From positions 620,001 through 684,000 of the forward strand of contig CANLQL010000001.1 in NCBI GenBank assembly GCA_947493265.1: DNA of 64,000 nt, in the 5' to 3' direction. Shown here piece after piece: positions 30,131 to 34,840 of this stretch. The number at the start of each line of letters is the position of its first letter. The first letter of the stretch is position 1. Origin of the DNA: an uncultured Litoreibacter sp. (GTDB lineage: Bacteria > Pseudomonadota > Alphaproteobacteria > Rhodobacterales > Rhodobacteraceae). The notes below the pieces were generated by a model. That model was not told the origin of the DNA. It searched no databases and saw nothing but the letters and a program-made list of their open reading frames with translations. A program made the translations under genes and the position numbers.

Positions 30131-30784
30131 GTGGTATTCAAACGCCGAGATCCAAAATCCTGGGCCTTATGGGCCTGGCATTTGATCTGGCCGCAAGGCG
30201 GCTGGGCGCGGGCGTTTAACTACGTAAAACACCGTGTGCGGCGCCTGCCAGACAGTCCGAACCGGATTTCGCGCGGTATCATGATGGGCGTGTTCACCAC
30301 GTTCACGCCGTTCTATGGCCTGCATTTCTTTATCGCGGCCGGGTTGGCGCGGGTTTTCAACGGCAACATTCTGGCCGCATTGATGGCAACTTTCTTTGGC
30401 AACCCGCTGACCTATCTTCCAATCGGGGTGATTTCGCTACAAACAGGGCATTTCATTCTGGGAACCGAGTTTCATGAAGACATGCATATCGGGCGAAGAT
30501 TCGCAGGCGCTGGACGGGATCTGAAAGACAATTTCGTCGCCATGTTCACGAATGATCGCGCGGATTGGATGCGGTTGCACAATTTTTATGACGAGGTGTT
30601 CTTTCCCTACATGATCGGCGGTATCCTCCCCGGGCTGGTCTTTGGTATCGGGGCCTATTTCCTGAGTGTGCCGGTGATCACCGCCTACCAAAACCGTAGG
30701 CGCGGGCGGCTCAAGGCAAAGTTTGCAGAATTGCGGGCGAAGCAGGCGCTCAAGAAGGCCAGCAAAACGGAAGATGGGCTTTAG
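30131..30784 (+). CDS. DUF2062 membrane protein
   Basis: A 217-residue membrane protein of DUF2062, with the conserved block [19 protein letters not shown] (about 57-75), the [10 protein letters not shown] motif, and two to three helices. The family has no established function. The start is a GTG at 30131. It sits 51 bases after rsh and 17 before pdxJ, in a conserved rsh-DUF2062-pdxJ-acpS order that I recall from other Rhodobacterales. Confidence 0.8.
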
Positions 30785-32629: not shown

Positions 32630-33418
32630 ATGGCAAGCAAGGCAGAAAAACCTGACGGAATTTTGGAAACCGTCAAAACCGTGGTCTATGCGCTGCTGAT
32701 TGCAGGGGTATTCCGCACGTTGTTCTTCCAACCGTTCTGGATTCCCTCAGGGTCGATGAAAGACACGTTGCTGGTGGGCGATTTTCTGTTCGTCAACAAG
32801 ATGGCCTATGGGTATTCGCAATATTCCTGCCCGTTTGGCATATGCCCAATATCGGGCCGTCTGCTTGGGTCGGAGCCTTTGCGCGGTGACGTCGTCGTCT
32901 TCCGCCACCCGGTCAGCGGACAAGACTATATCAAACGCCTCATTGGCCTGCCGGGTGATACGGTTCAGATGAAGGCCGGCGTCTTATACTTGAACGGCAA
33001 AGAGCAGGTGCAAACCCCTGCGGGTGATTTCGTCGAAGTCTATGAAGCTCAAGGATCCATTGGTGGGTTCCCGGCCTGTTCCGGTGGTGCCGCAGGCATC
33101 GGTGCAGACTGCGCAAAAGAAAAGTCCATCGAGGCGTTGGAGGACGCAGGTAGCCACTCCGTCCTTAACATTCGCGACGGGCTTCCGGGCGATGATACAG
33201 GCGTGTTTACAGTGCCTGAAGGCAACTACTTCTTCATGGGCGATAACCGCGACAATTCCGTGGATTCCCGGTTCCCGCAGACCGCCGGTGGTGTAGGTTT
33301 TGTACCGTTTGAAAACTTGCTGGGCCGCGCGGACCGCGTGTTGTTTTCGTCTGCGGGGGCGCGGATGCTCTATTTCTGGACCTGGCGGTCCGACAGATTT
33401 TACAAAGCCGTGGAGTGA
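32630..33418 (+). CDS. lepB: Signal peptidase I (active)
   Basis: Cleaves signal peptides of exported proteins on the periplasmic side of the inner membrane. The 262-residue protein has one N-terminal transmembrane helix (about 15-33), the nucleophile Ser42 in PSGSM, the general base Lys102 in DYIKRLIGLPGD, and the GDNRDNSVDSR box near residue 205. Both catalytic residues are present. A divergent paralogue starts 10 bases after its stop. Confidence 0.94.
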   Translation: MASKAEKPDGILETVKTVVYALLIAGVFRTLFFQPFWIPSGSMKDTLLVGDFLFVNKMAYGYSQYSCPFGICPISGRLLGSEPLRGDVVVFRHPVSGQDYIKRLIGLPGDTVQMKAGVLYLNGKEQVQTPAGDFVEVYEAQGSIGGFPACSGGAAGIGADCAKEKSIEALEDAGSHSVLNIRDGLPGDDTGVFTVPEGNYFFMGDNRDNSVDSRFPQTAGGVGFVPFENLLGRADRVLFSSAGARMLYFWTWRSDRFYKAVE

Positions 33419-33428
33419 TGCAGCGCTC

Positions 33429-34163
33429 GTGATCAAGAAGCGTCGGATATTTTTCTTACTGGGCTTGTCGCCGCTGGTGCTGGCATTTGTGCTCAGCCTG
33501 ATTGTCTACCGCGCCTACTGGGTCCCGACCGGTGATATGAAACCGACGCTTTTGGTGGGTGACTATATCCTGGCCAACCGTGCGGCTTATGGTTTCCCGG
33601 CGCTGAGTTGCAGTTTGAAGCTGTGCAAAAACGGGATCCCGCCGCTGGGAAAACTGCCAGAGCGTGGGGATGTCGTGACGTTTCTGCATCCTACGCGGGA
33701 CTATCACTTTATCCGTCGCGTTATTGGGCTGCCCGGGGATCGCATCCAGATGGTGGACGGCCATTTGCACCTGAACGGGGTCGCGGTCCCACAGGTGCAA
33801 GCTGGTCAGTATTCCGAAACCTTCGATCTTGAAGACGGCTCTCTGGCTTGTCTGAACGCGCCTGTCGCGCTGGGTGAGGAATGCGTCCGCAATCGGTTCG
33901 CTGAAGCGATGCCCAACGGGGCGATGTATCATGTTCTTGATATTATCGGCGAAACCAAAGGCGATACGACGCCGGAATTCATCGTGCCGGACAACCAGCT
34001 ATTCGTCCTTGGTGACAACCGTGACATCACTGCAGACAGCCGCACTGATCCAAGTGAAGGCGGTGTGGGCTATGTTCCGCTGGATCATCTGGTGGCACGG
34101 GTGGATGTGATCATGTTTTCGCTTCTGGGCGAAGACGGGCGCGAAATTCGGTGGGTACGATGA
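33429..34163 (+). CDS. Signal peptidase I-like protein without catalytic dyad
   Basis: A 244-residue S26 family protein with a transmembrane helix at about 7-28. Fold landmarks are kept: [21 protein letters not shown] and [11 protein letters not shown]. However, the position of the nucleophilic serine reads PTGDM, so Ser is Asp36, and the general-base lysine is Arg96 in [11 protein letters not shown]. By the known Ser-Lys mechanism it should not cut peptides. The GTG at 33429 is the start; an ATG at 33418 stops after four codons in its frame. It is flanked tightly by lepB and rnc (ATGA overlap), so it is maintained in the operon. Confidence 0.88.
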
Positions 34164-34840
34164 AACTGTCAGCCGAATTGCAGAAGTTCTGCGGCACGAT
34201 TGGCTACTCGTTTGGCCAAACAGAATTGCTGGTGCGTGCCTTGACCCATGCGTCGATTTCTTCCGGGACGCGGCCGGATAATCAGCGATTGGAATTCTTG
34301 GGCGACCGGGTGCTTGGATTAGTGATGGCGGAAGCGCTGCTCGCCAAGGATGTGGTGGCAGCCGAAGGGATATTGGCACCGCGGTTCAATGCCTTGGTGC
34401 GCAAGGAAACCTGCGCGGATGTTGCGCGTCAGATCGACCTCGGGTCCGTCCTGAAGCTTGGTAAATCCGAAATGGTATCGGGCGGGCGGCGTAAGGAAGC
34501 GCTTCTGGGTGATGCGATGGAAGCCCTGATCGCGGCGGTCTATCTGGACGGTGGTTTCGAAGCCGCACGGGATTTCATTTTGCGCCATTGGGGTGCGCGT
34601 ATCGATGGTGTCGAGGCTGATGCGCGCGACGCCAAGACCGCACTTCAGGAATTGGTGCAGGCGAAAGGGGATGTGCCCCCGATCTACGAGGTGACCAAAC
34701 GCTCCGGCCCGGATCACGCGCCGCAATTTACAATTGAAGTTCGGCTGCAATCAGGCGAAAGCGCAGTGGCGCAGGCAGGGTCCAAGCGGCAGGCAGAACA
34801 AGCTGCCGCCAAAGCGCTACTGGAAAGGCTAGAGACATGA
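34160..34840 (+). CDS. rnc: Ribonuclease III
   Basis: Cuts double-stranded RNA in rRNA and mRNA processing. The 226-residue protein has the RNase III signature [13 protein letters not shown] near residues 38-50, the second acidic site in [16 protein letters not shown], and a C-terminal double-stranded RNA binding domain (about 155-225) ending [16 protein letters not shown]. The ATG at 34160 overlaps the preceding stop. It is coupled to era by a 4-base overlap, as in many proteobacteria. Confidence 0.95.

Follow-up and report, generated by a model that had tools for sequence, protein, structure and literature searches.

Replacement of both catalytic residues in a second signal peptidase I gene of a Litoreibacter species, probably a lineage-specific inactivation

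The signal peptidase I paralogue lepB2 of an uncultured Litoreibacter sp. carries Asp36 and Arg96 in place of the catalytic serine and lysine, a pair seen in this species only among the genus genomes searched. Relatives in the genus have catalytically intact second copies, and further losses of catalytic residues occur across the family. We consider it likely, with a probability of roughly 0.75, that lepB2 is a fast-evolving, dispensable lepB duplicate that was ancestrally a working second signal peptidase and was inactivated in the lineage of this species. The gene lies in a stretch of 64,000 nucleotides (contig CANLQL010000001.1, positions 620,001 to 684,000), hereafter the window. No description of this lepB2 locus was found in the open-licence papers searched.

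The open reading frame of lepB2 occupies window positions 33429 to 34163 on the plus strand, starting with GTG at 33429 and comprising 244 codons. Profile searches showed that its protein exceeds the cut-offs of both Peptidase_S26 (PF10502; E 2.7e-33, 115.7 bits against a curated cut-off of 22.9) and the bacterial signal peptidase I model TIGR02227 (117.8 bits against 47), indicating that it is a member of the signal peptidase I family. The host genome gave two PF10502 matches at E ≤ 0.001, namely lepB and lepB2. LepB (32630 to 33418, plus strand; 262 aa), identified by its open reading frame, profile match and alignment, has the Ser-Lys dyad, and LepB2 is 40% identical to it over 222 aa. None of the named loci was more than 46% identical to lepB2, LepB was at most 71.3% identical among its best seven named loci, and 133 plasmid records gave solely matches below 60% identity. 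A profile scan of the window protein showed LepB2 to be without an N-terminal extension domain.

The preliminary description had reported the replacement of both catalytic residues within preserved surroundings, and our results confirmed this. Codon 36 is gat (33534 to 33536, plus strand) and codon 96 is cgt (33714 to 33716, plus strand). Asp36 and Arg96 aligned with the positions of the nucleophilic serine and the general-base lysine of the window's LepB, of the E. coli signal peptidase chains in the PDB, which lepB2 matches by sequence, and of ten other copies from the genus. At least two base changes separate a serine codon from gat, and three separate a lysine codon from cgt, so that one miscalled base in each codon is no explanation. 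The family match and the conserved boxes, including those flanking positions 36 and 96 and the GDNRD box, are common to LepB2 and LepB, but the dyad of active signal peptidase I is absent from LepB2, and the two residues after GDNRD are Ile200-Thr201 instead of the Asn-Ser found in the other nine aligned rows. In E. coli numbering, position 200 presumably corresponds to Asn277. With both catalytic residues replaced, LepB2 most likely cannot cleave signal peptides and is probably a non-cleaving protein.

The genes around lepB2 follow on the plus strand in the order acpS, lepB, lepB2, rnc, era and recO. Ten bases separate the lepB stop from the lepB2 start, and the lepB2 stop overlaps at 34160 (ATGA) the ATG of rnc, the ribonuclease III gene identified from the open reading frame list and a profile match (34160 to 34840, plus strand; alternative GTG at 34151). 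The window also encodes a DUF2062 protein (30131 to 30784), flanked by a RelA/SpoT-type gene and pdxJ.

We searched 21 genomes of the genus for a second copy beside lepB. The results showed a copy between lepB and rnc in 11 genomes and none there in the other 10, in which rnc follows lepB with 6 to 58 bases between the matched stretches. The earlier claim that the gene is locked between lepB and rnc is thus true of the window's genome but not of the genus. Both serine and lysine were kept in nine of the 11 copies. Eight of these (G129, G131, G132 and G134 to G138) group with the window's copy in the tree, but the ninth (G125) groups with lepB. One further copy (G133) keeps the serine and has serine in place of the lysine, and the Asp/Arg pair occurs in the window's species alone. 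The intact majority and the genomes lacking a copy both speak for inactivation in this one lineage. The absence of a second genome with Asp/Arg among those searched counts against it. A conserved Asp/Arg pair across relatives, which the preliminary description had looked to, is rejected by its presence in one of 11 copies, and the orthologues with an intact dyad that it had named as evidence against its own reading make up the majority of the genus copies. Of its proposal of a non-cleaving regulator or chaperone, the loss of cleavage would follow from the residues; a conserved role as regulator or chaperone is not supported, given the single Asp/Arg copy and the genomes with none.

Phylogenetic analysis placed 38 of 41 second copies outside the lepB rows; the three inside (P_G125, P_G201 and P_G241) fit recent copies of lepB. 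That lepB2 itself is a recent lepB copy was rejected by its 40% identity and its place outside the lepB rows. The G125 copy (L050) shares 73.5% identity with the LepB of its genome, a likeness concentrated in the later part and lacking at the N-terminus, suggesting a recent copy or conversion. In the protein tree, the window's copy has a tip length of 1.16, compared with 0.04 to 0.58 in the eight intact genus copies, which is consistent with inactivation. The second-copy tree puts it, with weak support, among these eight (94/65; 80/73 in another tree), whereas the LepB rows of the eight genomes form one clade (100/99) with the window's LepB outside. This conflict, which might tentatively be ascribed to a long-branch effect or to transfer, counts against our reading.

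We extended the search to 120 genomes of the family including the host, of which 118 gave a match, leaving 117 others. We inspected the downstream side of lepB in all of these but G004, 116 genomes in total, and a second LepB-like frame adjoined lepB in 10, indicating a sporadic distribution. One of the 10 is truncated where its contig ends (G008), and another (G063; L173:1335-1577) is an 81-aa remnant that lies between lepB and rnc and keeps the GDNRD box. Eighteen further tandem copies came from genomes picked, among 394 searched, for two matches at E ≤ 1e-40, and are therefore not a random sample. Together with the 11 genus copies and eight from the family search, 37 tandem copies were readable at both positions. 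The dyad was intact in 28 and had lost serine, lysine or both in nine: besides Asp/Arg in the window's species (G000) and Lys to Ser in G133, Ser/Lys was replaced by His/Met in G065 and by Glu/Gly in G324, and lysine by Gly in G089, by Ala in G178, G183 and G305, and by Gln in G186. Four second copies lie away from lepB, one intact (G226) and three not (G003, G092 and G225). The frames of G225 and G003 (L200 and L201) are S26-like, have 228 residues, share CICL near the N-terminus and are changed at the catalytic positions; they are perhaps a separate family. LepB itself keeps serine and lysine in 154 of 155 rows; in the exception (G119) the match is spread over two overlapping frames, probably because a frame change has split the gene.

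The losses required seven changes on the tree (bootstrap 7 to 8), four of them forced by well supported branches. Shuffled dyad labels required a mean of 8.3 changes, with 72 of 500 shuffles as low as observed, indicating that the losses are scattered about as by chance; the rows of G065, G324 and G112 are long and unsure in placement. In 19 of the 26 readable tandem copies outside the genus, the peptidase part is preceded by an open frame longer than 100 residues, and in the three scanned (L174, L197 and L199, from G410, G370 and G032) this extension is a DUF805 domain. The genus second copies adjoin lepB in the tree (83/84). In this unrooted tree one branch, along with three recent copies, divides them and the DUF805 copies from lepB, and a single duplication may or may not lie behind both groups. 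It is unlikely, in our assessment, that the lepB-adjacent second signal peptidases of this family, many of which carry a long N-terminal extension, repeatedly became non-cleaving as a series of separate pseudoenzymes sharing a binding role.

One rival reading is that lepB2 is decaying and that its place in the operon, where the stop overlaps the rnc start, helps to keep the frame open. The long protein tip, the 10 copy-less genus genomes and the G063 remnant point to decay, as does the finding that, outside the eight intact-copy genomes of the genus, the only non-recent copies found (G000 and G133) have both lost catalytic residues. Under a custom two-ratio codon model, neutral evolution was rejected both for the window's lepB2 branch (2 × lnL difference 51.0) and for that of G133 (18.8). 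The free codon ratio was 0.005 on the window branch and 0.064 in the relatives (2 × lnL 8.57 against one ratio), the former value not being trusted because this saturated branch has a length near its bound; counts at third positions rest on 13 sites. Since the window-branch ratio lies below that of the relatives, the model shows no relaxation. Because the branch is saturated and part of it predates the inactivation, what is shown is constraint along its whole length and not at the present day. Of 100 residues invariant in the eight intact genus copies, LepB2 keeps 80 and G133 keeps 75; the 20 changed sites in LepB2 include both catalytic positions and the Asn-Ser after GDNRD, and several of the changes are conservative. 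The rejected neutrality, the codon ratio that is not raised and the conservative changes argue against decay, which we hold to be a serious candidate at somewhat under even odds.

The codon model and the 80 kept invariant residues also weigh against simple inactivation and speak for a retained role. In line with the preliminary description, LepB2 could be a genuine pseudoenzyme maintained by selection, one that tunes export through non-cleaving binding of signal peptides, pre-proteins or LepB. Besides the codon model and the kept invariant residues, its open frame and predicted structure are consistent with this. The model, built from 45 aligned sequences, was confident (mean pLDDT 86.7, pTM 0.85), which is also compatible with our preferred reading. 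It consists of one N-terminal helix (codons 3 to 26; 33435 to 33506, plus strand), presumably a membrane anchor, followed by strands. Further support comes from SipA of Streptococcus pyogenes, on which pilus assembly is reported to depend although its two catalytic positions hold Asp and Gly (PMC4049620). However, the Asp/Arg pair is not conserved, the other genus members having no copy, an intact one or a different loss (G133), and the Asp of SipA is described there as mutable without effect (PMC4049620). We therefore regard this role as possible, although we lean against it.

LepB2 shares with the pseudoenzymes SipA and SpsA membership of the family without the dyad. Like SipA, it has Asp at the serine position and a replaced lysine, and it would likewise be non-cleaving, a property measured for SipA and predicted for LepB2. 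Unlike SipA, which has Gly at the lysine position and belongs to a pilus cluster, LepB2 has Arg there and its gene sits beside lepB and rnc (PMC4049620); no pilus families were found among 14 window proteins scanned around lepB2. According to a 2026 superfamily analysis, SipA is changed at E. coli position Asn277 (PMC12984324). SpsA of Staphylococcus aureus is described as a dispensable second homologue without two conserved catalytic residues, as LepB2 appears to be (PMC12445088). The host of SpsA is Gram-positive, unlike that of LepB2. A peptidase with changed chemistry, still cleaving through Asp and Arg or other residues, would fit the preserved boxes around both positions, but no lysine lies within five residues of position 96 in the alignment, and SipA, whose serine position is likewise occupied by Asp, is reported to have no detectable peptidase activity (PMC4049620). 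This makes continued cleavage highly improbable.

We return to lineage-specific inactivation as the preferred reading. The ancestral lepB2 of the genus would have been a working but dispensable second signal peptidase, both catalytic residues would have been replaced in the lineage of the window's species, and cleavage of signal peptides would then most likely have ceased. The membrane-anchored LepB2 may still bind signal peptides in its kept cleft, as proposed for SipA (PMC4049620), or may be on its way to loss. By analogy, some binding role may remain, and the selected role and the decay weighed above would be the two halves of this end state.

The signal peptidase pseudoenzymes in the literature consulted, SipA and SpsA, are Gram-positive, and LepB2 is alphaproteobacterial and lies beside the active enzyme. 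Orthologues with an intact dyad occur in its own genus, and the family shows several losses that appear to be separate. With matched pairs of this kind, one active and one inactive, it would be possible to test whether a dead signal peptidase retains a function.
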